Positions 15,771 to 34,185 of a stretch of 64,000 nucleotides of DNA are shown here, piece by piece (position 1 is the stretch's first letter; each line of letters begins with the position of its first letter). The DNA is from a virus: the IMG/VR virus record IMGVR_UViG_3300031857_000002, positions 186,001 to 250,000 of that record. One strand, given 5' to 3'. The notes beneath the pieces are model-generated. The model was not told the origin of the DNA. It saw nothing but the letters and a program-made list of their open reading frames with translations, and made no database searches. The translations under genes were made by a program, and so were the position numbers.

Positions 15771-16412
15771 TTATCTACCCATTACCCAGGGATCATTGAT
15801 AACTGGGGTACCATCTGCCCTGCGCATGAAATTACCACCATGCATATCCCAACGATATCCACGAGCTTTGCCAATTTTCATCAAGTCATCCAGAGTGGCA
15901 ACCATCTGTACCACTCCTTTGGCACCCAGTGCTTTCTCCAGTAGTGCATAATCCCCTTGTCTAAAATTTTTCAAGTATCTCACAAACGCACTCACGCTGA
16001 TACCCTTGTGTTCAATATAACTCCTAGACATCCAGCCTAGATCATCCAAGGCACGTCTCATTGGGCCTTGAGTTTTTTTTAAAGGTTCAGTACGAATCAT
16101 TAGATAGCGATTGTCATTCCACATAAAACTGTCATGACCATAAAACCTTGGCAACAAAGGATTGTCACTGTGCTTGCTACAATAATCGTACCAGGCAAAA
16201 AACATTTTTTGATCAGCACTGAAGTTTTGACGATTGCCTTGAGTGCCAAATACCTTTAGCACCAGGCCAGTACTAGGCTCCAAGTACGCAGTTTGATCCA
16301 CTCCTTTACCCAGGAATTGATAACCCTTGGCTTCTAGCTCAGATCTGATGCCTTTGTCTGTGGTTGAAAATTCTTCTAGATTTTGCTCGTCAATGAACTC
16401 CTGTGCTCTCAT
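15771..16412 (-). CDS. Kinase-fold protein with capsid-targeting-like leader
   Basis: The 213-residue protein has a protein-kinase/aminoglycoside-phosphotransferase pattern: GKGVDQ loop at 35-40, VLKVF with K53, a hinge near M105, a catalytic loop D189-M-H191-G-G-N194, and a DFG-equivalent NDPW with D207. Its length is near the minimum for a functional kinase and the C-lobe is short. The N-terminus MRAQEFIDE resembles the T4 internal-protein leader (MKTYQEFIAE) with an I-x-E cleavage site. It lies between endolysin and spanin genes. It may phosphorylate a host component or be an inactive kinase; substrate unknown. Confidence 0.72.
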   Translation of the reverse strand: MRAQEFIDEQNLEEFSTTDKGIRSELEAKGYQFLGKGVDQTAYLEPSTGLVLKVFGTQGNRQNFSADQKMFFAWYDYCSKHSDNPLLPRFYGHDSFMWNDNRYLMIRTEPLKKTQGPMRRALDDLGWMSRSYIEHKGISVSAFVRYLKNFRQGDYALLEKALGAKGVVQMVATLDDLMKIGKARGYRWDMHGGNFMRRADGTPVINDPWVMGR

Positions 16413-17032
16413 TTGGCAACACTTTCAAATATTTGTTTTTGTGCTCGATACCATTCCTGCCAGGCTTTTAGTTTTTCTGCGTTTTCGTGGCAGGCGCCGT
16501 AGTTGTCGACGACTGTTTCAAGGAGTTGACTGGCTTTAATGTCGCTGGGGGTTCCATCAACTGACTCGGCACCTCGGGCCACTTCATTACGACTGGCACT
16601 GTCGTGGAGCACGATGCTAGACTTAGGCAAAGAGCACTGGCTATCAAGCTGTGCGCCAGCAACTTCTCTAATGATTTCTCGGTTTGCATATACAGTTTCC
16701 TTTACAACTTTGATCTTGGTAACAAATTTGGTTTCAATTACGGTGTTGACTTCACGACTTCGAGCTTCGGCAATCTGAACTTTTTCTTCTAGTTCTTTGA
16801 TTTTGGCCAGCCATTTTTCTTCATTGCCGCGCCAGCCAAAAAAGTAAGCACCCACGCACAGCAGTAACACACCCACTAGTTCAGCAGGCATGCGGTACTG
16901 CATCATTATAGGAATCCAACGCACCAGCTTAGAAGCAATGTACAACAGCAAGCCTGCCGCAAATATCGCATAGGTCAACATGACAAAAATGCTGTCAGGC
17001 AACAAGCTAAACATCCACACCAACTGGTCCAT
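16409..17032 (-). CDS. Rz: i-spanin (Rz-like)
   Basis: The 207-residue protein has N-terminal hydrophobic segments (~12-36 and ~50-67) and then a charged periplasmic coiled coil (~75-125), the layout of an inner-membrane spanin subunit. It ends a few bases into the kinase-like gene (ATGA overlap). The identification is strengthened by a lipoprotein gene nested in another frame. It is longer than lambda Rz (153 residues). It would bridge to the outer membrane and complete lysis. Confidence 0.8.
   Translation of the reverse strand: MDQLVWMFSLLPDSIFVMLTYAIFAAGLLLYIASKLVRWIPIMMQYRMPAELVGVLLLCVGAYFFGWRGNEEKWLAKIKELEEKVQIAEARSREVNTVIETKFVTKIKVVKETVYANREIIREVAGAQLDSQCSLPKSSIVLHDSASRNEVARGAESVDGTPSDIKASQLLETVVDNYGACHENAEKLKAWQEWYRAQKQIFESVAK
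16468..16689 (-). CDS. Rz1: o-spanin lipoprotein (Rz1-like), nested inside Rz
   Basis: A 73-residue frame lies wholly within the Rz gene in a different frame. It has a lipoprotein signal peptide ending LASC (C27 lipidation), then a short Pro/Ser/Thr-rich mature part with MKWPEVPSQL, a hallmark of Rz1-type proteins. AAGGAAA sits 7 nt before the ATG at 16689. Nesting of o-spanin in i-spanin is the classical lambda arrangement. Confidence 0.88.
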   Translation of the reverse strand: MQTEKSLEKLLAHSLIASALCLSLASCSTTVPVVMKWPEVPSQLMEPPATLKPVNSLKQSSTTTAPATKTQKN

Positions 17033-17084: not shown

Positions 17085-17666
17085 TTAAAAGTCCATGTTA
17101 CATTGAGCTACAAGCTGCCAGTTTTTTAAATATCTGTACGCATCTGACAATCGATTGTGTTCCAGCTGATCCCGCATGAACACACTGAATTCATCAGGAT
17201 CCAAATCAATGTTGATCAGTTGATCAGCGTACCAGTCAACCCCGGTAGTAAAGTAATATTGCCAATGAAAATGCATTACCTTAATAAACACTGTGTTAAG
17301 TCCAAGATTTTCAATATCTTGCTGATGGTGCTGTACGCCGTCCACATTCCAATAACGTGCTAATGCGTCCACTAGATTGCTTTTTATCTTGATGATTTTG
17401 CGGTTGGGATATGTTTTTCTTATCAAATCTGAATTCACAGCGTGAGTATAAGCAATGGGAATACTGTCGTTGATCTCACCGTGATCACTCAGTGTTGGAT
17501 ACCGATATTGATTGGCCGGATTGTGATGTATCAAATGATCATGGCCAATCAATGGAACATTGTGATAATTGCCCTGAAGATTCAGATCAAAAGATTTGCC
17601 CAGCAAATGATGTATAAATCTAAAGCCGCCTGCTCCAGGAAAGTAACTTACAACAACAGGATCCAT
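17085..17666 (-). CDS. Sulfotransferase-like P-loop protein
   Basis: The 193-residue protein starts with a beta-strand followed by FPGAGGFRFIHHLLG, similar to the PAPS 5'-phosphosulfate-binding loop of sulfotransferases. A middle KIIKIKSNLVDALARYW segment could correspond to the 3'-phosphate-binding part. It is shorter than typical sulfotransferases (~250-300). Its start overlaps the stop of the amidinotransferase gene (TAATG). Four other proteins in the window begin in a similar way. Assignment is by pattern only; it could also be a distinct NTP-binding fold. Confidence 0.5.
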   Translation of the reverse strand: MDPVVVSYFPGAGGFRFIHHLLGKSFDLNLQGNYHNVPLIGHDHLIHHNPANQYRYPTLSDHGEINDSIPIAYTHAVNSDLIRKTYPNRKIIKIKSNLVDALARYWNVDGVQHHQQDIENLGLNTVFIKVMHFHWQYYFTTGVDWYADQLINIDLDPDEFSVFMRDQLEHNRLSDAYRYLKNWQLVAQCNMDF

Positions 17667-18724
17667 TAGTATACAAATAAATTCTGGTCACCCCGCTCGG
17701 GAAATAAATCAACTCTACTGTCATTGCGACGTATGTCCAAGGTTAGACAGTGCAGTCCACCGTCCCAGAATGTTCTTGTTCTAAATGGCATGGGGTGTGC
17801 GGTAATGCCATGCTGTTCTAGCGCACGAAATACACCTTCATTTTCCCCTACCATTAGCACGTTCTTTTCATCAATCACAAGACAGTTTAGTTCAAAGTAG
17901 GTTTCTGTGTAGTCGCCTACCCAGTCTTGTGCGTGTTTTATCACATGATCGTTAAATTTTGCCGAATTTGATACTCCGGGCAGCCACCATTTGCCGTTGT
18001 GCCATGGCCCTGTTCTACTGGATTTTTTTTTGTGGCGTAGAAATTCTGGTTGGTTTATGTTTATTTTTTCCCAGCCAGGGAATGTACGATCGTAATCGTC
18101 AAAGTACTCGCTGGTCAGTAATAATCCAGGCTTGAGCACAGCAAAACATCCATCCACATGTCCGCCATTGTTTAACATATGCAACCGATAATCTTTAAAA
18201 GTTTTTTGTATATATTCAACGTCTACATGCTCGTTGTGCCAATAACTGTCTAGGTAAAAGTCGCGACCCACACGTACAGTATTGGCACCGTTGATATGCC
18301 CGGCTCCAGGAATGTTTGGTCGATCAACTATGCGGCTGCCAAGGTCCTTGACATAGTCAGCAACAGCATCAGCCCAGGCTCTGTGATCCCAGGTTGCTCC
18401 AAACAATGTGTTGCCAAACACCAGGAAATGATCACGTGGTGTAATCATGGGCTTGCATAGTTGCCCTGCACTAGTGGGATGACCTTGCGGCATCAAAAAA
18501 TCTTCAATACGATCGTAACGGGGTCTGCGAACTTGCACACCGTGTTCTTCTAGTTTGCGTTGTATTACTGCAAGATCCTCTTGAGTCTTTTGAGTAATTT
18601 CATAAAAGATATCCTGTACTTCTGACTCTAGATGATCATAAAAATGTGCTGGATAACAGTTGCCCAACCATACTTCTTCAAGTCGGCCCCAGTTGGTGAA
18701 ACTGTTTATCTTTGGCAGCGTCAT
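17666..18724 (-). CDS. Amidinotransferase/deiminase-fold enzyme
   Basis: The 352-residue protein matches the guanidino-group modifying superfamily (glycine/inosamine amidinotransferase, arginine deiminase). It begins with NWGRLEEVWLG, has MITPRDHFLVFGN, a GGHVDGCF motif with H189 and D191, and the nucleophile C326 in DGGLHCLT near the C-terminus. Length is close to GATM (about 385). It may transfer an amidine group from arginine to an amine, or hydrolyse arginine. It overlaps the APS-kinase-like gene upstream by 4 nt and the sulfotransferase-like gene downstream, forming an operon. Confidence 0.85.
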   Translation of the reverse strand: MTLPKINSFTNWGRLEEVWLGNCYPAHFYDHLESEVQDIFYEITQKTQEDLAVIQRKLEEHGVQVRRPRYDRIEDFLMPQGHPTSAGQLCKPMITPRDHFLVFGNTLFGATWDHRAWADAVADYVKDLGSRIVDRPNIPGAGHINGANTVRVGRDFYLDSYWHNEHVDVEYIQKTFKDYRLHMLNNGGHVDGCFAVLKPGLLLTSEYFDDYDRTFPGWEKININQPEFLRHKKKSSRTGPWHNGKWWLPGVSNSAKFNDHVIKHAQDWVGDYTETYFELNCLVIDEKNVLMVGENEGVFRALEQHGITAHPMPFRTRTFWDGGLHCLTLDIRRNDSRVDLFPERGDQNLFVY

Positions 18725-19515
18725 TCTAATCCCAGTTCTTTTCTAATAGCAGTGGCCGAAATTGAATGAGTTGCAGAATCAAATGATTCTTGTTCTATCT
18801 TGTAGCCCACGTCTCGACCGTAGGTGATATTTACTATGTTGGGCACAACTTGTATTTCGTATTGACCTTGATATAACATGTCTAGATCTCTACGTATATA
18901 ATTCCTCACCTGTTCTATAGCAAAGGGATTTGATCCTTGCCAGCCTTGACAATCTCTAATTTGAATTACCACTTGACCTGTTTTTGCAATGGCACGTTCA
19001 AACAACTTGCGATGTCCTGCATGCCATGGTTGCCAACGACCTAGCATTTGCACAGTTTCTTTCTGCCAATCGAATACAGGGCGTCTGCGATTATCTAAGA
19101 TATGTGCGGCCACAAACTCGCCCCACTTCTCACCATGCTGTTCAGTGATGCGGAAATCATATTGCTCAGGCGGAACGAATGCTTTATTAGTATCTTCGTA
19201 GCGGCCCTGATCAATGGTGTCAACCCATATGGTCCAGTCTGCTTTGAAATTGTTGCGCATGTCAACCAAGGGAGCCACAAAGTCACAGATCACATAGTCT
19301 ACATCTGTCATTGCATCTGCCAGTTCGCGCATACGTAAACTCTGACGTATACGGCCTGCTTCACTGAAATCCCAGTCGTTGTATTTTTTACGTACATCGT
19401 CGGCATTTAACCAACCCACACGTTTCTTTTCTGCTTGCAAGTGGTCTACAATGTGTTGTGCCAGGTATGTTTTGCCGGCCCCTGGCAGGCCCATGATTAA
19501 AATACGTTGTGTCAT
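18721..19515 (-). CDS. APS-kinase-like P-loop kinase fused to HIGH-type nucleotidylyltransferase
   Basis: The 264-residue protein has two domains. Residues 1-~150 resemble adenylylsulfate kinase: Walker A GLPGAGKT at 9-16, ADDVR, NDWDFSEAGRIRQ, and VDYVICDFVAPL. Residues ~160-264 are a small nucleotidylyltransferase: GRWQPWHAGH (HxGH), a DCQGWQGSNPF stretch and ISATAIRKEL. The order differs from NadR (nucleotidylyltransferase first). It might supply PAPS-like donors to the nearby sulfotransferase-like proteins, or act in nucleotide-cofactor synthesis. A TAAATA element lies 5 nt before the ATG. Confidence 0.8.
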   Translation of the reverse strand: MTQRILIMGLPGAGKTYLAQHIVDHLQAEKKRVGWLNADDVRKKYNDWDFSEAGRIRQSLRMRELADAMTDVDYVICDFVAPLVDMRNNFKADWTIWVDTIDQGRYEDTNKAFVPPEQYDFRITEQHGEKWGEFVAAHILDNRRRPVFDWQKETVQMLGRWQPWHAGHRKLFERAIAKTGQVVIQIRDCQGWQGSNPFAIEQVRNYIRRDLDMLYQGQYEIQVVPNIVNITYGRDVGYKIEQESFDSATHSISATAIRKELGLE

Positions 19516-19520
19516 GCTAT

Positions 19521-19526
19521 TATTTA
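19521..19526 (-). promoter_or_regulatory. Late-promoter-like TAAATA element
   Basis: The core is 5 nt upstream of ATG 19515 in the 23-nt gap between divergent genes; no ribosome binding site fits. Confidence 0.4.
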
Positions 19527-19538
19527 CTAAGTAATTTT

Positions 19539-20666
19539 ATGAATGTATTAATTTTAACTCCGGACCGCGTTGGCAGCACTTTATTACAACGTGTGATCAC
19601 TGTGTACATGCAATCGCACACTTACAATCGCCCTGTGATTAACTTACACGAACTCACAAACGGATTAATGAAATACTACAGTCCTGTGTTCAATCAAGAA
19701 GTGCTGGGCAAACCAACTGACCGTCCTTGGGGATATTACCAGTCACTCGACGAAATACTGGAGCATTTAAACAGCACAGATCACTACAAGACCGCACGAT
19801 TGGCACATTATCATATTTTAAATCGTCAAGATCCATTGGCTAATCAGGTGCCTTTTTATCAATACCTAAATGATAACTTTTTTATAATCAGCGCCCAAAG
19901 GAAAAATCTACTAGAACATGCACTAAGTTGGTGTATTCAAGGACATTCAAAAAAGTTAAATGTTTACACACATCAAGAAAAGATTGATACATTTGCTGAC
20001 ATATATCAAAATAGAATCACAGTTGATGTGAATGTAATGATAACGTATCTCAACAAGTATGTGAACTACTTGAACTGGGTTGACAATCATTTTACAGTGA
20101 ATTCATACTTTGAATATGAAACACACATGCCTAAAATTGAAGAATATATACTGGGTTTGGATATATTTGGTGGACAACAAAAAAAATCATGGCATGACAC
20201 GTTTGGCATTGAGTTTCAAGACTGGAATCGATATCATTATCTTGCCAGTGACATGAGCGGCATAAGCAAACAGTTACCAAGTCCAGACAACTTAAAAATC
20301 ACGTTTGATTCTCAAGACCAGTTGGACAGTGTAGATCTAGTACCTGTGTTTAATAAAAATGCAATTCATAATAGTCTAAGCATTGGCGACAAACAGTTTT
20401 TAAAACAACATACTAGCAAATACATCAGCAGTTACAAAGCAATTGATGAGTTGGTTCAGCATAAGATAATGGTCACAGGCATTCCCATTAAACTGCAAAC
20501 CATGATGGAAAAAAGCCGACTGATACGCAATTTTGATCAATGCGCAGAAGCATACAATGACTGGGTCAAGCAACGTGGAATAGGCGATCCTTATACCAAT
20601 ACTGATATCAAGAAAATTGCACTAGATGAAATTAGCACCTGGCATTCGATGCCAAGGCTGGAATAA
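19539..20666 (+). CDS. Sulfotransferase-like protein
   Basis: One of only five plus-strand genes. The 375-residue protein starts at ATG 19539 (MNVLILTPDRVGSTLL); an earlier in-frame start gives only ten more residues that would overlap the divergent gene. The PDRVGSTLL loop after a first strand resembles the 5'-phosphosulfate loop of sulfotransferases, and AQRKNLLEHALSW at ~120-135 resembles the R...S 3'-phosphate motif. It converges on the SGNH gene, overlapping its end by 35 nt. A sulfate acceptor cannot be inferred. Confidence 0.65.
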   Translation: MNVLILTPDRVGSTLLQRVITVYMQSHTYNRPVINLHELTNGLMKYYSPVFNQEVLGKPTDRPWGYYQSLDEILEHLNSTDHYKTARLAHYHILNRQDPLANQVPFYQYLNDNFFIISAQRKNLLEHALSWCIQGHSKKLNVYTHQEKIDTFADIYQNRITVDVNVMITYLNKYVNYLNWVDNHFTVNSYFEYETHMPKIEEYILGLDIFGGQQKKSWHDTFGIEFQDWNRYHYLASDMSGISKQLPSPDNLKITFDSQDQLDSVDLVPVFNKNAIHNSLSIGDKQFLKQHTSKYISSYKAIDELVQHKIMVTGIPIKLQTMMEKSRLIRNFDQCAEAYNDWVKQRGIGDPYTNTDIKKIALDEISTWHSMPRLE

Positions 20667-21480
20667 TTTCGCATACTAACGCATTGCTAGTAAGAATATC
20701 ATAATGAAATCCATCACGAGCATAATCCAATTGCTCTGTCTGGATCACATTATCAAAATCTAGATTGTCCCCAGCTGGTGCCCAGGACGGAATAGCTGAA
20801 TGTACAATATTTCCCTGTAGTTGTTGCATGCACAATCGAGTATTAATAATGTCCTCGTCAGTGGTAGAATTAATGTGTTCTAACCTTAGTTCTTCACTAG
20901 ATGGGTCGATGCTTGACCAATCATGCAACTGCTTTATTTCTGTCTTTATCCAGGCCGGCAAATTATCAAAATCCTGAATACTTTTACAATCCGGCCAACT
21001 TACATCTTGTACAGATTTATAAAAATTTAAAAATCTTTCATTTAAAATGATGCTTGTGTCAAACTCTCGACGATGCATATAACTCCATTGGACTACTATA
21101 TTAGCCTGAGGAAACTGCGTTAAAATTGCAACTGCAATCCTGGCAATCCAGTTATTACTTGCTCCATCCATGCTGACATTTATTACACGACGCCTTAGGC
21201 GTTGCTGTAGCATATAAGGCCAGGTATGTTCAAGTGGGCTGCCTAGTCCCACAGTAAAACTATCTCCAACGCACCATATCACATCAGACAAATCATCAGG
21301 CCACTCTGCATCTCTAAATCCGCGACTGTTATAATGATATTCAACCTTGTGCGGGTACGACAAAAAATGTTCACGATTCAAGCACAACTCAAGACTATCC
21401 ATGCCTGACTCTAGCCAATGCTGGTTGACTCTTGACGGCAAATATAATTCAGGTAATAGACTTGGTTTTGTTATCGCCAT
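20632..21480 (-). CDS. SGNH-hydrolase-like protein
   Basis: The 282-residue protein has GDSFTVGLG with the candidate nucleophile S74, preceded by the NSRGFRD strand common to this phage family, and a C-terminal DGFH with D256 and H259. These fit block I and block V of SGNH/GDSL esterases. A GASN at ~108-111 could contribute the Asn. It may deacetylate or de-esterify a glycan. Two diverged relatives occur at 32378 and 33634. Its 3' end overlaps the convergent plus-strand gene. Confidence 0.72.
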   Translation of the reverse strand: MAITKPSLLPELYLPSRVNQHWLESGMDSLELCLNREHFLSYPHKVEYHYNSRGFRDAEWPDDLSDVIWCVGDSFTVGLGSPLEHTWPYMLQQRLRRRVINVSMDGASNNWIARIAVAILTQFPQANIVVQWSYMHRREFDTSIILNERFLNFYKSVQDVSWPDCKSIQDFDNLPAWIKTEIKQLHDWSSIDPSSEELRLEHINSTTDEDIINTRLCMQQLQGNIVHSAIPSWAPAGDNLDFDNVIQTEQLDYARDGFHYDILTSNALVCEIIPALASNARC

Positions 21481-21482
21481 TT

Positions 21483-22127
21483 TTATAATGTGCTTAAAAA
21501 TAGTTTTGTCTTGTCAGTAATAATTCCAGTGATCTGCAGAGTGGCTCGGGGCACATGTCCTGCATTGGCGGTGGCGTGCGGTACGTTGATCCAGTCAAAA
21601 GTGCTGACATCCCCGGCCTGCCACCCTGTCCATGCATAGTTGCCATAACTCCAGAAATGTCCCTGCTGCCAGTCTGTGAGCTGTACAAAATAACGCACAA
21701 CCTGAGAAGGGTCAGTAGGCATCCATTTTTCCAGCTTGTCTAAGTGTAGATTCCATACTTGCCCAGGATGTTGCACATGTATTCTAGCCATGCTTTTTTC
21801 CAGGCCAAATTGATCAGCAATGTGTTGAAACACAGGATCAAGATTGTAGTTCAAGTTAGTGACCACATAGTCACGTCCGTAACCTTGTTGCTCTAGATCG
21901 TAGTCTTCTTGATCGTATTCTTCTGTGGCACGTTTTAATGGGTCCGAGTCGCGACCACGAGTGCGCCAGGTCACAGGTGCAGATGCAGTTATAGCCGCAG
22001 ATAATTCTTCTGCCCATGTAGGTTGAATGTGTCCTAGGTGTTGTACTGTGTCCCATCGTGGATCTATTACGCTATTATCAAAATGATATTGACTTCTTTG
22101 TTGAGTTATTGCCCAAGCTGATTTCAT
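21483..22127 (-). CDS. 2-oxoglutarate/Fe(II) oxygenase-like protein
   Basis: The 214-residue protein starts at ATG 22127, overlapping the upstream stop; a longer frame is less plausible. The C-terminal half has a facial-triad pattern: H128-x-D130 (LHLD), H184 (VPHAT), and R194 (PRATLQ) ten residues later, as in 2OG oxygenases of the hydroxylase type. GDVSTFDW and WSYGNYAW strands support a double-stranded beta-helix. It could hydroxylate a protein, sugar or small molecule; partner unknown. It is within the sulfotransferase-like cluster. Confidence 0.7.
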   Translation of the reverse strand: MKSAWAITQQRSQYHFDNSVIDPRWDTVQHLGHIQPTWAEELSAAITASAPVTWRTRGRDSDPLKRATEEYDQEDYDLEQQGYGRDYVVTNLNYNLDPVFQHIADQFGLEKSMARIHVQHPGQVWNLHLDKLEKWMPTDPSQVVRYFVQLTDWQQGHFWSYGNYAWTGWQAGDVSTFDWINVPHATANAGHVPRATLQITGIITDKTKLFLSTL

Positions 22128-22744
22128 ATTACTGTTACCTTTATGTCTGACGCTGTGTAGTCTTGATAGTATTCTGTTGCTGGAACTTGAATACCAACAG
22201 TTCTGGCCAGTTGTCTGTTGGTTTCCACAACTGTGGCAGGCCATTCACGGGCCGCACGACGATTGCCCTCATTTTCTCTGCGTATGCATTCGGCCATTTG
22301 ACGCAGGTCTCGGTAATAGTCCCGGTACAATGGATATGTTATTTTAAACTCCCCACATTTGACCCACCATCCTAGGCAAGCATCATCTGTGCGATCAATC
22401 AGCACAATAGGACAATCAGGCCAGGTTTTTTTGATATAATCGATATGATATCCAAACACATGGCTTTTGATAATACGTACACCTGTGCCACTAAATGGTG
22501 CATCAAACTCTGCTTCGTTCTGTTCTCGAGTGTATTGATCCAGGTGTTCAAAATGATCACCAAATTCCATGGCTGGTCCCCAGTACACTCCCATGTGTAA
22601 CAATTCCATTGTGCCCGAAGCGTCATGACGATATGTTCTGGCTTCTGAGTAATCAGTTGAGTCTACGTCGGCGCTGTAGTAAATGTTTTTTACTACGGAA
22701 CTCCATTTAGAGCCCGGGGCTCCACTTACAAAAATATATTTCAT
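22124..22744 (-). CDS. Sulfotransferase-like protein
   Basis: The 206-residue protein starts at ATG 22744 (MKYIFVSGAPGSKWSS), overlapping the stop of the Bug gene. The GAPGSKWSS loop is placed like a sulfotransferase PSB/P-loop. A central IKSHVFGYHIDYI, then a PIVLIDRTDDACLGWW segment (R-T-D-D in place of R...S), supports the fold. Coupling to the 2OG oxygenase gene downstream suggests the two act on one substrate, but this is inference. Confidence 0.58.
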   Translation of the reverse strand: MKYIFVSGAPGSKWSSVVKNIYYSADVDSTDYSEARTYRHDASGTMELLHMGVYWGPAMEFGDHFEHLDQYTREQNEAEFDAPFSGTGVRIIKSHVFGYHIDYIKKTWPDCPIVLIDRTDDACLGWWVKCGEFKITYPLYRDYYRDLRQMAECIRRENEGNRRAAREWPATVVETNRQLARTVGIQVPATEYYQDYTASDIKVTVI

Positions 22745-23700
22745 TCTGGTCGGATCCTTCTGGCAATGGGTTGCCACGTTTGTTGTAGTCGGGCCATGCT
22801 AGCACGTACACCTGCTGGCGAGTGTTCTTCAGTGGTGATGTACATCATGTTTTCTCGAAACCTTGCTCCTGCTGCTGTTGAGCGTATGGCAGGTACAAAC
22901 TGTTCAGCATACCATTTCTGTATGTCTTGTGGAGTACCTGGTGGTAGTACCATGTTCCAGCAGCCGTGTATGCTGAGTCCTGGTGCTGCCTTGCTCATTA
23001 ACGGCGCAGATTCTAATCCTGGCAAGGGTCGTGTGTCAGCGATACCAATCAACTTGAGCTTGCCTGCAATCACATGCGGATATCCCACTGCCACAGGAGT
23101 AACGCCAAATTCCACATGCCCGCCCATGACATCTAATAGTGCCTGAGCAGGACCTTTGTACATGGCTGTTTCAACTCGATCACCGCCAGCAACATTTAGC
23201 TTGTCTTTAAGATATTCCACTGCTAATTTATGACCCCCTCCGCCAATGGCTATAGTAATGGGCCTTTCTTTCTTTCTAATGGCTGCCACCAGTTCTTCGG
23301 GCGTGTTGATACGACTGCTGGGGTGTGCCCAGAATGCTAGTGGACTACGTGCAATATTAGCAATGGGTTCTAGATCCATGGGATTATATTTAATTACCTT
23401 AGGATACCATACTTCAGGAGTGACCCAATTTGACTGACACGCAGGCACCGCAATAGTGTGTCCGTCTGCAGGTGTAGTCACAAAGTGATTGATAGCAATG
23501 TTGCCATCAGCACCCGGTCTGTGTTCAGACACAAATTTGGCACCGGTTGACTTTTCTACAATATCTGCTACAATACGAAATGATATTTCATTTCCGGCAC
23601 CTGGTCCATTGGGGAATATAACAGTGACAGGTTTGGTGGGTTGCCAGGCCCAGGCTGATGAGGCAAACAAGGCCACGGCAAGAAATTTTAGTGTACGCAT
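22741..23700 (-). CDS. Bug/TctC-family periplasmic binding protein
   Basis: The 319-residue protein has a signal peptide (~18 residues, cleavage after AWA) and the full-length pattern of tripartite tricarboxylate transporter substrate-binding proteins: KPVTVIFPNGPGAGNE, EHRPGADGNIAINH, PADGHTIAVP, TPEELVAAIRKK, and a MYKGPAQALLDVMGGHVEFG stretch. Such proteins bind carboxylates in the periplasm and abound in beta-proteobacteria. No transporter subunits are nearby, so it would serve a host TctAB system or act alone. AAAGGAG precedes the ATG. It looks like a host-derived auxiliary metabolic gene. Confidence 0.9.
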   Translation of the reverse strand: MRTLKFLAVALFASSAWAWQPTKPVTVIFPNGPGAGNEISFRIVADIVEKSTGAKFVSEHRPGADGNIAINHFVTTPADGHTIAVPACQSNWVTPEVWYPKVIKYNPMDLEPIANIARSPLAFWAHPSSRINTPEELVAAIRKKERPITIAIGGGGHKLAVEYLKDKLNVAGGDRVETAMYKGPAQALLDVMGGHVEFGVTPVAVGYPHVIAGKLKLIGIADTRPLPGLESAPLMSKAAPGLSIHGCWNMVLPPGTPQDIQKWYAEQFVPAIRSTAAGARFRENMMYITTEEHSPAGVRASMARLQQTWQPIARRIRPE

Positions 23701-23719
23701 AAGACTCCTTTAAATACAT

Positions 23720-23727
23720 TATAAATT
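23720..23727 (+). promoter_or_regulatory. Late-promoter-like TATAAATT octamer
   Basis: Seven of eight bases match the T4 late octamer TATAAATA, 24 nt upstream of the plus-strand methyltransferase start. Confidence 0.5.
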
Positions 23728-23751
23728 CTAAGTTATATATCAAAATTTACT

Positions 23752-24480
23752 ATGAACACAAAAATTTTCAACCTTTTACAAAAAAATCTACAACTTGCGT
23801 TTAATTTACCCAAGTACGCCGCAATCACAATTGACGCAGATACCAATGTACACAGCCTGCCCTGGACTCCTGCTCGCTACAGCAAGTTCAAAGACGCTGT
23901 GGAAGCAGAACTCAGTCTGCCTTGTGAGTATCGTGGCACCTTGCGAGAGATTGCGGATGACCTTAGTGAACGCTACACACATAGATTCTTTGCGGAAATA
24001 TGGAAGCCAAGAACAGGCGACTATGAACACACAGGCTGGGAACTAGCTGAAGAAATCAACAAACTGAACCCGGAACGTGTGCTTGATGTGGGCTGTGGCT
24101 ATCATCCTTTTAAAGGGCGCATTCACAATCTTGTAGGAATTGATCCTTACAATAACTGCGCAGATTATGAAGTAGACATCTTAGACTACAAGGTAAAACC
24201 ACAATCGCACGATGTGATCATTGCCCTGGGATCAATTAACTTTAATTCACGAGACGAAATCGAATCACGTTTTGCACACTGTGTTTCATTACTAAAGCCT
24301 GGCGGTAAATTCTTTTTGCGAGCCAATCCTGGCATTACCCACAAGACAGGACCTTATGTGGAGATCTTTTCGTGGACTTTTGAAGTTGTGAATGAATTTG
24401 CAGAAACATACAATTTAAATCTAGACACCTTTAAGAAAGATGCCAATGACCGATTGTATTTTGTGTATACTAAACGCTAG
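23752..24480 (+). CDS. Class I SAM-dependent methyltransferase
   Basis: The 242-residue protein has a Rossmann methyltransferase core: VLDVGCGYHPF (motif I), VGIDPYNN (acid after beta-2), HDVIIALGSINF (motif IV position) and LLKPGGKFFLRANPG (motif VI). An N-terminal ~85-residue helical part precedes it. The substrate is unknown; the context suggests a small molecule or glycan rather than DNA. Its 3' end overlaps the convergent sulfotransferase-like gene by 11 nt. Confidence 0.8.
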   Translation: MNTKIFNLLQKNLQLAFNLPKYAAITIDADTNVHSLPWTPARYSKFKDAVEAELSLPCEYRGTLREIADDLSERYTHRFFAEIWKPRTGDYEHTGWELAEEINKLNPERVLDVGCGYHPFKGRIHNLVGIDPYNNCADYEVDILDYKVKPQSHDVIIALGSINFNSRDEIESRFAHCVSLLKPGGKFFLRANPGITHKTGPYVEIFSWTFEVVNEFAETYNLNLDTFKKDANDRLYFVYTKR

Positions 24481-25357
24481 GAACCCAAGGTTCAGAATCA
24501 CAGCGTAGCAGTGCTTGTTGTATCACGGGCTGTGCATCCACTGTGCTCAAGGCAATGAATTCATCAATGGGCATTTTGAGATAGCGTTCGGCCATGGACA
24601 CATTGCGGTCATGATACTGTTGCATCATACTCACAAGATGCTGGGACGAGTCATAATCAATACCAAAGTGCTGGCACACACGAGCATGCTCTGATTCGCT
24701 GTCTCCAAACATCAATTCAGACAGATCAATGTTGAATAGTGATTGGTAGTCCAGTGGCAAAAACCAGTGCTGATACTCGTTCTGTATCCTGTTGATTACC
24801 GGGATATTTTCCTTGTGGTCACGCCAGGAGTCAACCTCAAATTGATAAAACCATTCTCGTCCGTTGATGTAGTGTTTAAAATTTTCCACGGTGTCATGGT
24901 CTTGATCAAATTGACTTGACAAGTGCTGTGCCCATCCTGATTCTGGGGCAGATGGCAAGTATCTTTCCACGGTAAATCTAAAAAGACGCATTTTGAGCCA
25001 CATCAGTACAAAAAAGAATTTCTTATGTTCGTCAGCACAGGTTATAAAGGCTTTTTGTGCTGGGTCGGCAAACACAATGCCCGAAAATGATCTATTGTCA
25101 GACTGTAAATTGCGTTGGCAGTAAGGGTGAGTGATCAGAAACAACTTGCGGTCTGTGCCCTTGGGAGAAAATTCAAATGTGTTGTTTAGTATATGAACGT
25201 ATCTGTTGTTCTTTAGTTGTTTCACAGTAGAAGGTATGCAGCCAGGATGTTGACTCAGCCAGTAGGCCATGAACTCTCCGCCAAACCCTCCAGGATAAAT
25301 CAACAAATATGCCGATTCAGGACGCACCAGTTGCGTGGTCAATTTCTGATCTAACAT
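24470..25357 (-). CDS. Sulfotransferase-like protein (low confidence)
   Basis: The 295-residue protein begins with a strand and LLIYPGGFGGEFMAYWL, echoing the loops of the other sulfotransferase-like proteins in this window, followed by a helix. A later LFLITHPYC and a long helical C-terminus are visible, but no clear 3'-phosphate motif. It lies 3 nt from the upstream 115-residue gene. Alternative: a distinct phage family with a P-loop-like opening. Confidence 0.45.
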   Translation of the reverse strand: MLDQKLTTQLVRPESAYLLIYPGGFGGEFMAYWLSQHPGCIPSTVKQLKNNRYVHILNNTFEFSPKGTDRKLFLITHPYCQRNLQSDNRSFSGIVFADPAQKAFITCADEHKKFFFVLMWLKMRLFRFTVERYLPSAPESGWAQHLSSQFDQDHDTVENFKHYINGREWFYQFEVDSWRDHKENIPVINRIQNEYQHWFLPLDYQSLFNIDLSELMFGDSESEHARVCQHFGIDYDSSQHLVSMMQQYHDRNVSMAERYLKMPIDEFIALSTVDAQPVIQQALLRCDSEPWVPSV

Positions 25358-25360
25358 GTA

Positions 25361-25708
25361 TCATTTGCCAGCGGCCCGTAAATTAGCGCCGTTGTTGAAG
25401 CTGGGGCTGTAAGGACTGTTGCCCTGTATGTTGCCTTTACGTGCTGACCATTCATAGCCTGCACGATGCCCTGAACAGTCCTTGGTACAGGGCGAGCCCA
25501 GGAAGCTGAGTTCATCCAGCTGTTCTTCCTGTAGCTTGGGACGTATTTCTACTATGGTGGCATTGTGATAGTCAGCCCAGGCACGTGCGGCTGTTTCACT
25601 AGGAAACGTTCTACGCCACTGTTCACGCTGATCTCTGCGGTTGTACGCATACCCCCAGGCTTCTACAGGCGTGCCGGCAATTTCTTCAAACAGCATCAGC
25701 AGTTCCAT
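25361..25708 (-). CDS. Small protein with C-x3-C-SGHRAGY motif and capsid-leader-like N-terminus
   Basis: The 115-residue protein starts MELLMLFEE, similar to the T4 Alt leader (MELITE) with an L-x-E site. Residues ~18-55 (Y-x-Y...W...F-x-S...A) look like one of the modules found at the end of the giant protein at 1-3951. The C-terminus carries CTKDCSGHRAGYEW, a motif I have seen in phage structural or polyvalent proteins; no function is known. It overlaps the DUF6321-type gene by 13 nt. Confidence 0.65.
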   Translation of the reverse strand: MELLMLFEEIAGTPVEAWGYAYNRRDQREQWRRTFPSETAARAWADYHNATIVEIRPKLQEEQLDELSFLGSPCTKDCSGHRAGYEWSARKGNIQGNSPYSPSFNNGANLRAAGK

Positions 25709-27153
25709 TTGCGCAGAGCCAGAGCCTTGCGTGTGGGTTTGCCATTGGGCTTTTTCATTGGACCTTTAACACCGCCCATTCTTGCGCAGAAACTCTTGCG
25801 ACGCTTGGCAGCTTTGGATCCAGGCTTGAGTTTTGAAGGCTTGGTTGTGACTGCTGTTTGTAGTTTAGAACCAGGATTCTCTCTACGATAGCTGGCCACA
25901 CCCTTGGCGTTGAGTCCGCCCTTGGCGCTCTTGCCTTCTTTACGACGCCAGGCTGCTGTTTCGTACAGCATGTGGTCATCCATGGCTTCAAATGTTTCCC
26001 ACACAAGATCAACACTTACGCCTTTCTTTCGAGCCATTTCCTCGGCTAACTGATCCATGGCTTCAAACATCTCATCCACTTCAGGATCTACTTCGTCTGA
26101 TGCTTCCTCTGAGTACATGTAATCCCACACACTAACCAACATTGACTTGGCCACTGCAATCTTTTCTTGACACCATTCAGGCAAGTTATCACCTGAGTTG
26201 ATTAGATCATCCAAGCCGTCAACTGCGCGATCAAGAGTTTCTAGGTTGTTTTCTACCATGCCTGCTTCGTCATCGTACTCGGGATTGTAGTCTTCTGCCA
26301 TGCCTTGTTGACCCGACATATCCATCAGTTGTCGAACATAGAAATTGTAATAACCACGACGGCTGTTGTATTCTCTATCGCCTAGCACAGTCTTTAATGC
26401 AGCCACAGCATCACTTGCTTCTGAACCCTGCATTATTTTTAATGCGTCAGTCACAAGTGAATCAACTCTTTGTGAACTTTCTGTCACACCTTTGTTGTGT
26501 GCTTTCCAGGCTGTGGCATAGGCAATTGATTTTTCTTTATCAGACAACTTGCCATCTTTGGCATAGCCTTTTTTGATATGCTTGACCATGCGTTCTGCTT
26601 TGGCACCTGGAGGTGCGGCTTCGTCTACACCGGCCTTTTTCTTTTTGGCAATGGCAATAGCAGCCTGTTGTGCAGGATTTGCGGCTTCCGCTACACTTTG
26701 CTTGGATTTAATAATATTTCTAATGTCTGTAGCATTTACCCAACGTTTGACTTCACTGCGTGGGTAATATGTCTTTGATCCATTGTTAGACGTAACACCT
26801 TCTAACTTTTTGGGGAAATTACCTATATGCAACACAAGTGTTCGTAATTCATTTGAAGTAATACCTAGTTTTTCTGCAATCTCTTGAAAGCTCCAGGTAG
26901 GCTCTCTCCAGTCTGGGTGTTTCATATTTCCTGGAATATGGATTCCTCTGAGCTCGGGGGTAGAATTAGTACTAGATGTAGATGGGGAATATGTACTATC
27001 AAAACCTTCTTCTACTGACTCAGCAGGCACACAGTTGTTCACACGCACACCACCCTTGACCTTGGTTTTAGGGTTGCCAATCTTTTTGCCTGTCCAACAT
27101 TTGGGATCCAAGCGGACTTTTTCTTCAGAAACAATAAAGTCATTAAATTTCAT
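25696..27153 (-). CDS. Modular head-associated protein with HTH and DUF6321-like C-terminus
   Basis: The 485-residue protein starts MKFNDFIVSEE, like T4 internal-protein leaders. It contains, in order, a K-x-CW...NNCVP motif (20-43), a short MerR/AlpA-like helix-turn-helix at about 80-140 (WSFQEIAEKLGIT ... YYPRSEVKRW), a Lys-rich KAERMVKHIKKGYAKDG block, an acidic helical region, and a basic C-terminus with RRKSFCARMGG and ALRKWNC, as in DUF6321. Basic and DNA-binding modules suggest it is packed with DNA in the head; that is inference. Confidence 0.68.
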   Translation of the reverse strand: MKFNDFIVSEEKVRLDPKCWTGKKIGNPKTKVKGGVRVNNCVPAESVEEGFDSTYSPSTSSTNSTPELRGIHIPGNMKHPDWREPTWSFQEIAEKLGITSNELRTLVLHIGNFPKKLEGVTSNNGSKTYYPRSEVKRWVNATDIRNIIKSKQSVAEAANPAQQAAIAIAKKKKAGVDEAAPPGAKAERMVKHIKKGYAKDGKLSDKEKSIAYATAWKAHNKGVTESSQRVDSLVTDALKIMQGSEASDAVAALKTVLGDREYNSRRGYYNFYVRQLMDMSGQQGMAEDYNPEYDDEAGMVENNLETLDRAVDGLDDLINSGDNLPEWCQEKIAVAKSMLVSVWDYMYSEEASDEVDPEVDEMFEAMDQLAEEMARKKGVSVDLVWETFEAMDDHMLYETAAWRRKEGKSAKGGLNAKGVASYRRENPGSKLQTAVTTKPSKLKPGSKAAKRRKSFCARMGGVKGPMKKPNGKPTRKALALRKWNC

Positions 27154-32377: not shown

Positions 32378-33046
32378 ATGTCGTTGCCTCTGCCATTTTT
32401 TTCTCAATATGAATGCCGAAATGAAACACTAGAAGTTTTTGCATCGGACCGTCGAGGAATAGTAGAATACAAGATAAACAATCTTGGATATCGCAACAAT
32501 ATTGATTATTTAGAATCTGACACTGAAGTAGGAGCATATTTTGGATCAAGTATTACAACTGCAATTGGTGTGCCCTTGAATCATGGATTTCCTCACATTA
32601 GTGCAACCAATTTGAATTCAAAGTGTTATCAATTTGGGCAAGGTTGTATGATGGTAGACAATCAAGAAAGTCTGCGGCTTCTGAAAGAAGTGTTGTCTAG
32701 TAGCTTGAATCCTCGATATTTTGTAATACAATTTATAAATCTTGGTCGCAGATACAATTACGAAAACGGTAGAGCAACCATGGAAGACAATGCTGACGAC
32801 AATATTAAATTATTTCATCAAACATTTAAAGAAATTGAAGAACTATTGAAAAATCAACCCTGGTGTTTTATAGGCACAGACAATGCAGGAGTTGATGTTG
32901 GCGACTATATAACAAAACACGCACACTGCGTGAAGTGGAATCTAAAATTTGTTGATCTTGCTGGGGTCGGAGAACACCCAGGATTCAAATGGCATCAAAT
33001 GATTGCCGCTGGTATTGTAAATAATTTACAAAAACAATTGTCTTAA
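32378..33046 (+). CDS. SGNH-like protein (diverged)
   Basis: The 222-residue plus-strand protein aligns by eye with the minus-strand gene at 33634 and with the SGNH protein at 20632: GIVEYKINNLGYRN, then GAYFGSSITTAIG where the hydrolase has GDSFT, and a following NHGFP. The C-terminus has HPGFKWH in place of the DxxH block. The Asp before the nucleophile Ser is lost, so activity is uncertain. It overlaps the convergent gene at 33026 by 21 nt. It may bind rather than cut its ligand. Confidence 0.6.
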   Translation: MSLPLPFFSQYECRNETLEVFASDRRGIVEYKINNLGYRNNIDYLESDTEVGAYFGSSITTAIGVPLNHGFPHISATNLNSKCYQFGQGCMMVDNQESLRLLKEVLSSSLNPRYFVIQFINLGRRYNYENGRATMEDNADDNIKLFHQTFKEIEELLKNQPWCFIGTDNAGVDVGDYITKHAHCVKWNLKFVDLAGVGEHPGFKWHQMIAAGIVNNLQKQLS

Positions 33047-33655
33047 TCGATCATTCTTGCTGATCCATAGGTCGTAACCTGCTGCCAGTTTCTCATAATC
33101 TTTAACTTTACACTGACACACAGTTTCAACTATGTTGTAAAAAATTGATCGGTCAAACAGATCTTGTAGGTATAGTGGTTCTAGCAGAGTATTATTCCTC
33201 CAAGACCTTATATTTTTTGTCCAGTTTATTTCACAAGCATCAACTATGTTACTTGCATTTAACTTAGATTGTATAGGTTCTGTGTACGATGATTTCATAA
33301 AGTCTGCCATTCGCACCCGATCATTGGCAAATCTTTTAAACAAAAAAATATCCACGATGTCACGTGACATCGCATCTGGATAATCTATATAATATAGTTT
33401 ATGTGCAATCTTTGGGTAATAATCTAAATAATAATGCGTATTTTCAACCGGCAAGGTGTTAGATGAATCAACTGAGGCATTGCTGTTAAAGTAGTCTGCC
33501 TTGGTAATATGTTTAAATGTACTTGATAACTCTACCACTCCGTTGTTGCGTATTGTATAAGCAGACGACCCTGATAGTTGGTCCGAGCAAATGCCTGCTA
33601 AAAAATCGCCGGCACTTCCGCCATTGAAACAAATTATTGCTTGAATAGTTTGCAT
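33026..33655 (-). CDS. Sulfotransferase-like protein (low confidence)
   Basis: The 209-residue protein begins with IICFNGGSAGDFLAGIC, the same strand-loop-helix opening as the other sulfotransferase-like proteins here. No firm second motif is visible. It overlaps the SGNH-like gene at 33634 by 22 nt, so a sulfotransferase-like/SGNH-like pair is repeated away from the main cluster. Confidence 0.45.
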   Translation of the reverse strand: MQTIQAIICFNGGSAGDFLAGICSDQLSGSSAYTIRNNGVVELSSTFKHITKADYFNSNASVDSSNTLPVENTHYYLDYYPKIAHKLYYIDYPDAMSRDIVDIFLFKRFANDRVRMADFMKSSYTEPIQSKLNASNIVDACEINWTKNIRSWRNNTLLEPLYLQDLFDRSIFYNIVETVCQCKVKDYEKLAAGYDLWISKNDRLRQLFL

Positions 33656-34185
33656 AACAACTTGTATGTAATTAGATGTGTACTAATACCCATGTGTGTG
33701 TTGCTAACGTCGGTATCAACATTAGGAACACCCGAAAAACAATTTTTATAAGACATTTTGTCTCCGCAAAATGCCTGTATAAATCCCAACTTGCTTAGTT
33801 GTCTGCTATAAAGATCTAGAGATTCGGTATTTCTGTTAACCCAGTATACAAATTTTTTTGTTGCCTTGTTAAAAGCAGAAGAGTGCAGATAATTGTCAAC
33901 GATTAAAAACACATCATCGTTATTGTAAATCCCAGCTAACCCATAATTGTGGGACAAAGGAAACATGGACGGAAATATATAATTGTGTGCTACTCCAATG
34001 CCAAATACTGAACTACACCCAAAAAACGCATGATCGGGCACAAAGTCAAAATCCACCAACGAGCGAAACCCTTGTTGGTTAAATTGATAATCAATTATTC
34101 CAGTCTGATCCAAACCAAATTGATTAACAGTTTGGCCTTGACAGCGAATCATTCCCGGAACATGGTTGGTTACCCAAGTTGACAT
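33634..34185 (-). CDS. SGNH-like protein (diverged, short)
   Basis: The 183-residue protein shares GIIDYQFNQQGFRS and AFFGCSSVFGIGV with the proteins at 32378 and 20632. The catalytic block reads GCSS, again without the Asp, and the C-terminus has NTHMG. Catalysis is doubtful. It overlaps the clamp-loader gene by 16 nt, and so seems inserted into the replication block. Confidence 0.55.
   Translation of the reverse strand: MSTWVTNHVPGMIRCQGQTVNQFGLDQTGIIDYQFNQQGFRSLVDFDFVPDHAFFGCSSVFGIGVAHNYIFPSMFPLSHNYGLAGIYNNDDVFLIVDNYLHSSAFNKATKKFVYWVNRNTESLDLYSRQLSKLGFIQAFCGDKMSYKNCFSGVPNVDTDVSNTHMGISTHLITYKLLCKLFKQ

Follow-up and report, generated by a model that had tools for sequence, protein, structure and literature searches.

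The DNA analyzed here (the window, 64,000 nucleotides) comprises positions 186001 to 250000 of the 320,175-base virus record IMGVR_UViG_3300031857_000002 and belongs to a giant freshwater phage. The source is a jumbo phage of a lineage met here in metagenomes alone; no near-DNA match to named phages was found among 50,697 phage records. Between 17.1 and 25.4 kb, an island of ten genes is flanked by a spanin/endolysin/DnaJ/Clp block and a PhoH/clamp-loader block. It encodes a class I S-adenosylmethionine (SAM) methyltransferase (MT), a Bug/TctC-type binding protein (Bug), a divergent sulfotransferase-like protein (ST22), a 2-oxoglutarate (2OG)-Fe(II) oxygenase, further sulfotransferase-like (ST-like) proteins (P1, P4, P10), an SGNH-like hydrolase (P5), an amidinotransferase relative (AmT), and a fusion protein with an adenosine 5'-phosphosulfate (APS) kinase-like domain (P3). 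An initial annotation had proposed these ten genes as one modification system. All of them proved to be real open reading frames (ORFs) in their assigned places, with slightly shifted starts for P4 (19539), 2OG (22127), and ST22 (22744; Table 1). Pfam matches above the cut-off are confined to TctC in Bug and the APS kinase domain, the remaining island ORFs matching weakly. As initially described, some genes overlap by a few bases: Overlaps of 4 bases couple Bug, ST22, and 2OG, and likewise P3 and AmT. The idea of a single ten-gene system was rejected by neighbourhood counts, which split the genes into three layers: a core, a mobile SGNH-sulfotransferase pair, and accessories. The core, consisting of Bug, ST22, and 2OG with MT on the opposite strand, co-occurs across phage backbones and is mobile among them.

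A profile search with ST22 revealed at least 567 viral contigs with a match. Genes were called mechanically, and the best 80 loci were kept per scan, so that the counts are skewed to near relatives; in the best 80 ST22 loci, 2OG is present in 78, MT in 63, and Bug in 60. Dereplication at 90% ST22 identity resulted in 87 groups, and the 51 loci with adequate flanks were counted as sums across three genomic settings. MT accompanies ST22 in all 51 of these, 2OG in 44, and Bug in 43; other genes near ST22 are f158, a second sulfotransferase (29/51), P3 (27/51), a diiron protein (14/51), and AmT (6/51). With MT as the reciprocal anchor, Bug was found in 58 of 58 loci, ST22 and 2OG in 53 each. Core co-occurrence is far above chance. 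The usual arrangement is MT (-), then Bug, ST22, and 2OG, and the core occupies a PhoH/lysozyme/DnaJ site, a place beside a putative family B DNA polymerase (by sequence), and others. The module is missing from about 25 loci with the PhoH-lysozyme-spanin-DnaJ-Clp backbone of the first site, and thus the island is optional. In the collection searched, the module was not found in sequenced phage isolates; among named phages, its proteins have partial matches only, in the marine single amplified genome (SAG) virus AG-345-D19 and in S-SCSM2R.

Inheritance was assessed by a Mantel-type comparison of pairwise identities. The divergences of backbone genes correlate at 0.5-0.85. Within the core, the values are 0.40 for ST22-MT, 0.32 for 2OG-Bug, 0.27 for MT-Bug, 0.25 for 2OG-MT, and 0.20 for ST22-2OG. 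Correlation of core genes with the endolysin is approximately 0, whereas PhoH does correlate to some extent with MT (0.44) and 2OG (0.25). We read weak congruence together with near-constant co-occurrence as exchange of single genes that are nevertheless retained as a set, a pattern in favour of a joint function.

ST22 is, as judged from its family, a putative divergent member of the 3'-phosphoadenosine-5'-phosphosulfate (PAPS)-dependent sulfotransferase superfamily. Sulfotransfer_3 was detected in 37 of 51 family members (best E 1.9e-6; 0.027 for the window member), and PGSxWS, K93, H95, and R118 are invariant in 51 sequences; from family knowledge, we take these to be the 5'-phosphosulfate-binding (PSB) loop, the catalytic K-x-H, and the 3'-phosphate arginine. 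Its AlphaFold model reaches a pLDDT of 94.8. The oxygenase retains H129xD131, H185, and R195 in all 25 sequences compared, and MT conserves SAM motif I, VLDVGCGYHPFKG. PDB profile searches with ST22 and 2OG gave no significant match. Bug matches Pfam TctC at E 1.7e-23 and has a signal-like N-terminus in nearly all relatives inspected. While TctC is present in most ST22 loci, the permease TctA occurs in 9 of the 87 dereplicated ones, adjoining Bug in L409 (E 4.6e-94) and in other copies; it was not found in the sequence of this phage. A second binding protein of TctC or DctP type is paired with a PP-loop-like protein (motif SAGRDS) in L424 (7934-9990), L006, L010, L096, and L108; in two DctP-like copies examined, the signal peptide is seemingly absent.

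Only four genome contigs match ST22, two of them long bacterial contigs. According to gene content, L408 (MT, diiron, GATase, cupin, f158, ST22, 2OG) and L409 (TctA, Bug, ST22, 2OG, MT) are probably phage contigs within metagenome-assembled genomes. In Tahibacter aquaticus, one strand carries genes for a diiron protein (PaaA_PaaC, E 1e-7), two sulfotransferases (1.7e-35 and 9e-6), a pentein (ADI, 1.5e-12), a sulfatase-like protein (1e-15), ST22, and MT, with a MATE gene adjoining. Massilia atriviolacea carries a 2H protein, a sulfatase-like protein, ST22, and MT in this order, and a diiron protein and f158 lie within 8 kb. MT immediately follows ST22 in both species, and ST22-MT is also found in a second genome of the Massilia family (G329). 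ST22 is rare in the two bacterial families (3 of 628 genomes). The Tahibacter pentein shows no significant similarity to the phage AmT profile, which indicates independent recruitment or deep divergence. The initial annotation had suggested asking whether the island's families scatter independently. The core does not, and ST22-MT recurs in bacteria; in contrast, AmT, the SGNH-P4 pair, and P3 are separate from it.

P4 resembles Stf0-like sulfotransferases: Its model (pLDDT 85.6) matches Stf0 1tex in Foldseek with probability 1.00 and E 1.8e-4, followed by 3rnl (0.98) and 1bo6 (0.97), although the TM-scores reach only 0.3-0.5. The adjacent P5 matches Lipase_GDSL_2 at E 6e-4, under the Pfam cut-off, and carries GDSF (block I) and DGFH (block V, DxxH). 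An SGNH gene adjoins P4 in 63 of 68 loci and ST22 is near in only 25, and SGNH and P4 form a separate mobile pair outside the core. The second SGNH/sulfotransferase pair, reported initially at 32.4-34.2 kb, does exist but lies outside the conserved module. The pairs at 32378-33655 and 19539-21480 are unrelated and have the same convergent layout with a 3' overlap of 20-35 bases; G+C content of the 32-34 kb stretch is 37%, compared to 45% around it. P1, P10, and the 33 kb ST-like ORF share a P-loop-like N-terminus and have no family support beyond that. P1 homologues adjoin AmT in L005 and L018/L019, and for P10, neither a Pfam or PHROG match nor phmmer relatives were found. As P1 and P10 lack family matches, two of the four sulfotransferases claimed initially are supported (P4 and ST22) and two are plausible.

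AmT is most closely matched in the PDB by SxtG, followed by AGAT and StrB (E ~1e-11). R97-D98, H189, D191, and C326 are kept in 108-110 of 110 sequences; for the catalytic Cys/His (C326, H189) and the guanidinium Asp pair (D98, D191), the figure is 109-110. The equivalent of AGAT Asp254, the acidic partner of His, is N, S, P, or C at position 145 in most and D in 13 of 110; due to this lack of conservation, AmT is called a pentein-fold relative of arginine amidinotransferases, with putative activity. Its family extends to 457 viral contigs and 66 dereplicated contexts, with non-core neighbours in most. AmT was considered as the key gene and rejected; at 6 of 51 ST22 loci, it is an accessory. 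Near AmT, DUF6875-like (25/66), ATE_C-like (23/66), and DUF6614 (14/66) genes recur in dereplicated contexts (L030, L031, L039, L050, L057, L075, and others). This set, which also occurs in the window phage at ~50.8-52.1 kb of its genome (L420:10796-12062), together with AmT looks like a second, separate biosynthetic cassette. The phage encodes two more amidinotransferases elsewhere; the one at L429:11153-12178 overlaps a 2OG oxygenase ORF, and a similar adjacency is seen in cyanophage S-SCSM2R.

P3 matches PF01583 with 43.8 bits (cut-off 21.1; E 3.5e-11) and is a P-loop kinase with a conserved APS-binding motif, DD.R..FS..R. Its small C-terminal domain carries LGRxQPWHxGH and matches nicotinamide mononucleotide (NMN) adenylyltransferases in the PDB; the ATP-sulfurylase domain of a PAPS synthase was not found in P3. 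Homologues occur in Stenotrophomonas, Xanthomonas, and Clavibacter phages, and the module is absent from the one such region inspected. P3 diverges in step with the endolysin (r 0.63) and looks like a resident of the phage lineage. That the module relies on P3 to supply PAPS was considered and is unsupported.

Table 1. Features of the island and its surroundings (window coordinates).
Feature	Position	Strand	Basis
Class I SAM methyltransferase (MT), core, divergent from the rest	23752..24480	+	SAM motif I
Bug/TctC periplasmic carboxylate-binding protein, signal peptide, core	22741..23700	-	Pfam TctC
ST22, divergent sulfotransferase-like, core	22124..22744	-	Sulfotransfer_3 in family members, invariant motifs
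2OG-Fe(II) oxygenase, core	21483..22127	-	Intact HxD..H..R
SGNH-like hydrolase (P5), of the mobile pair (second layer)	20632..21480	-	Convergent, overlaps P4
P4, Stf0-like sulfotransferase	19539..20666	+	Foldseek versus Stf0
P3, APS-kinase-like domain and small nucleotidylyltransferase domain	18721..19515	-	APS_kinase
Pentein-fold amidinotransferase (AmT) relative, accessory	17666..18724	-	PDB relatives
P1, ST-like P-loop-type ORF, paired with AmT	17085..17666	-	No Pfam support
P10, ST-like ORF	24470..25357	-	No relatives found
Rz-like inner spanin, backbone gene flanking the island	16409..17032	-	PHROG Rz-like spanin, 1e-5
Second SGNH(+)/ST-like(-)/SGNH(-) set, outside the core	32378..34185	mixed	G+C 37%

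The glycosyltransferase and radical SAM genes initially connected with the island exist at 4-6 kb and are unlinked to the conserved module. Across the pieces of the phage's own genome (L420-L431), radical SAM relatives number ~16, alongside several SGNH-like ORFs and the two additional amidinotransferases noted above. Many ORFs begin with a short 'M[KR].x[ED]FI.E'-like peptide that recalls the T4 capsid-targeting sequence (window 15771-16412 and 25696-27153; L004 1070-6170; L007 11520-12245). Judged by this start peptide, they may encode internal head proteins; one is weakly protein-kinase-like (PHROG 15752).

Our preferred interpretation, to which we grant slightly less than an even chance, is that the core is a phage-borne metabolic module importing and tailoring a small carboxylate. 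Bug, together with TctA in some phages, would bind its ligand, a small carboxylated compound, in the periplasm so that it can be imported. In the cytoplasm, the oxygenase would hydroxylate it, ST22 (in many cases alongside another ST-like protein) would add or handle a sulfo group, and MT would methylate it. In some phages, this one among them, AmT and the SGNH/Stf0-like pair would serve as optional decorations. Gene content, coupling, co-occurrence, mobility, motifs, and bacterial counterparts can be read directly from sequence; we infer that import feeds the enzymes (the direction of transport), what kind of substrate is used, that the product is a small molecule, that ST22 uses PAPS for sulfation, and that the steps follow this order. 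Both the bacterial counterparts and the TctA/TctC partnership favour a small molecule over the targets proposed initially (glycan, tail fiber, DNA, or surface). A more far-reaching version, which is doubtful at present, holds that this is a widespread virus-borne pathway for a specialised metabolite, a sulfated, hydroxylated, methylated, and in some cases guanidinated molecule made from a carboxylate imported by Bug/TctA, with enzymes shared between phages and rare bacterial natural-product-like operons.

Several observations weigh against import and tailoring. The best PDB fold neighbours of ST22 are sulfotransferases, but not significantly so (E 0.05, TM ~0.4). TctA is missing from most phages, and no TctB turned up, although no search was aimed at it. 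Bug is exported, yet the enzymes look cytoplasmic, and both Bug and 2OG are absent near the bacterial ST22-MT copies. Correlations between core genes are weak, that of ST22 and Bug (0.04) being not significant. Finally, P3 tracks the backbone, and thus PAPS supply by the module is unproven.

The main rival, which we consider rather unlikely, is decoration of surface or virion glycans (lipopolysaccharide, capsule, or virion glycans) by sulfation, methylation, guanidino groups, and O-acyl change by SGNH, blocking superinfection or altering adsorption. SGNH and Stf0-like sulfotransferases often act on sugars or lipids, and an amidinotransferase lies in the same island as an accessory. Amidinotransferases do occur in sugar contexts: Cyanophage S-SCSM2R has two beside 2OG oxygenases amid glycosyltransferases and KdsA/KdsB, and that of Campylobacter phage CP220 lies amid radical SAM and sugar-transferase genes. 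However, no conserved glycosyltransferase or sugar-nucleotide gene was found at the core loci examined, Bug and TctA are small-molecule transport proteins, and in bacteria the neighbours of the copies are a MATE exporter, a diiron protein, and a pentein, not sugar genes.

Nutrient scavenging, in which Bug (with TctA) raises uptake of a carbon, nitrogen, or sulfur source that the enzymes degrade or mobilise, is improbable. TctA and TctC import carboxylates, and peptidase C26/GATase and diiron genes are added to the module in some phages; tctA and a 2OG oxygenase are listed as auxiliary metabolic genes (AMGs) in SUP05 phages (PMC4164917). Yet both the sulfotransferase-like gene and the methyltransferase gene are of a biosynthetic type, and an exporter lies beside ST22-MT in Tahibacter. 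It is very unlikely that the island simply collects host-derived cargo at a hot spot, its genes sharing no function and co-travelling by proximity alone: Many accessory genes are gained and lost and divergences are weakly congruent, but the near-constant co-occurrence speaks for genes exchanged yet held together, and bacterial chromosomes likewise have ST22 and MT side by side. That the target of modification is phage DNA or a virion protein, as suggested initially, is very improbable given a periplasmic binding protein in the core, no conserved nucleotide-modifying gene beside it, and movement of the island among backbones, even though nucleobases and proteins are possible substrates of hydroxylases, methyltransferases, and guanidino enzymes.

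Aquatic phages commonly carry sulfotransferase and 2OG oxygenase genes, and what the former do is an acknowledged open question (PMC10580990). With one sulfotransferase-like family locked in a transferable four-gene module, this question becomes testable. Since no isolate in the searched collection carries the module, work on isolates misses it; its bacterial operon counterparts are laboratory-workable. No paper describing the module was found in the open-access literature searched. Single genes (a sulfotransferase family, 2OG-Fe(II) oxygenase, tctA) have been reported as AMGs whose role is unknown, from OM43 and SUP05 phages and from estuarine phages (PMC10580990, PMC4164917, PMC12285232), whereas here they form a co-occurring multi-gene module that includes a methyltransferase. 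The T4-like Campylobacter phages CP220 and CPt10 carry an interchangeable module of radical SAM and amidinotransferase genes (PMC2853527); there, too, biosynthetic enzymes including an amidinotransferase form a cassette that is swapped. It differs in having radical SAM in place of sulfotransferase, 2OG, and Bug, and only the amidinotransferase family is common, at ~21% identity. With the tripartite tricarboxylate transporter the module shares Bug, which is TctC, and in some cases TctA, here within a phage enzyme operon. Saxitoxin-type clusters combine amidinotransferase, sulfotransferase, APS kinase, oxygenase, methyltransferase, and a MATE exporter. The likeness to such cyanobacterial clusters for guanidino or sulfated alkaloids lies in the kinds of enzymes, the MATE exporter being found in Tahibacter only. 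It is a resemblance in kind, not membership: AmT is only an accessory in phages, and a polyketide-synthase core of the saxitoxin type is absent from window 1-40 kb, where no ORF exceeds 774 aa. The Tahibacter and Massilia operons lack Bug and 2OG and have additional sulfatase-like and 2H genes, in Tahibacter also a pentein and the MATE exporter; in common with the phage module, they possess homologous, adjacent ST22 and MT with a diiron gene nearby.

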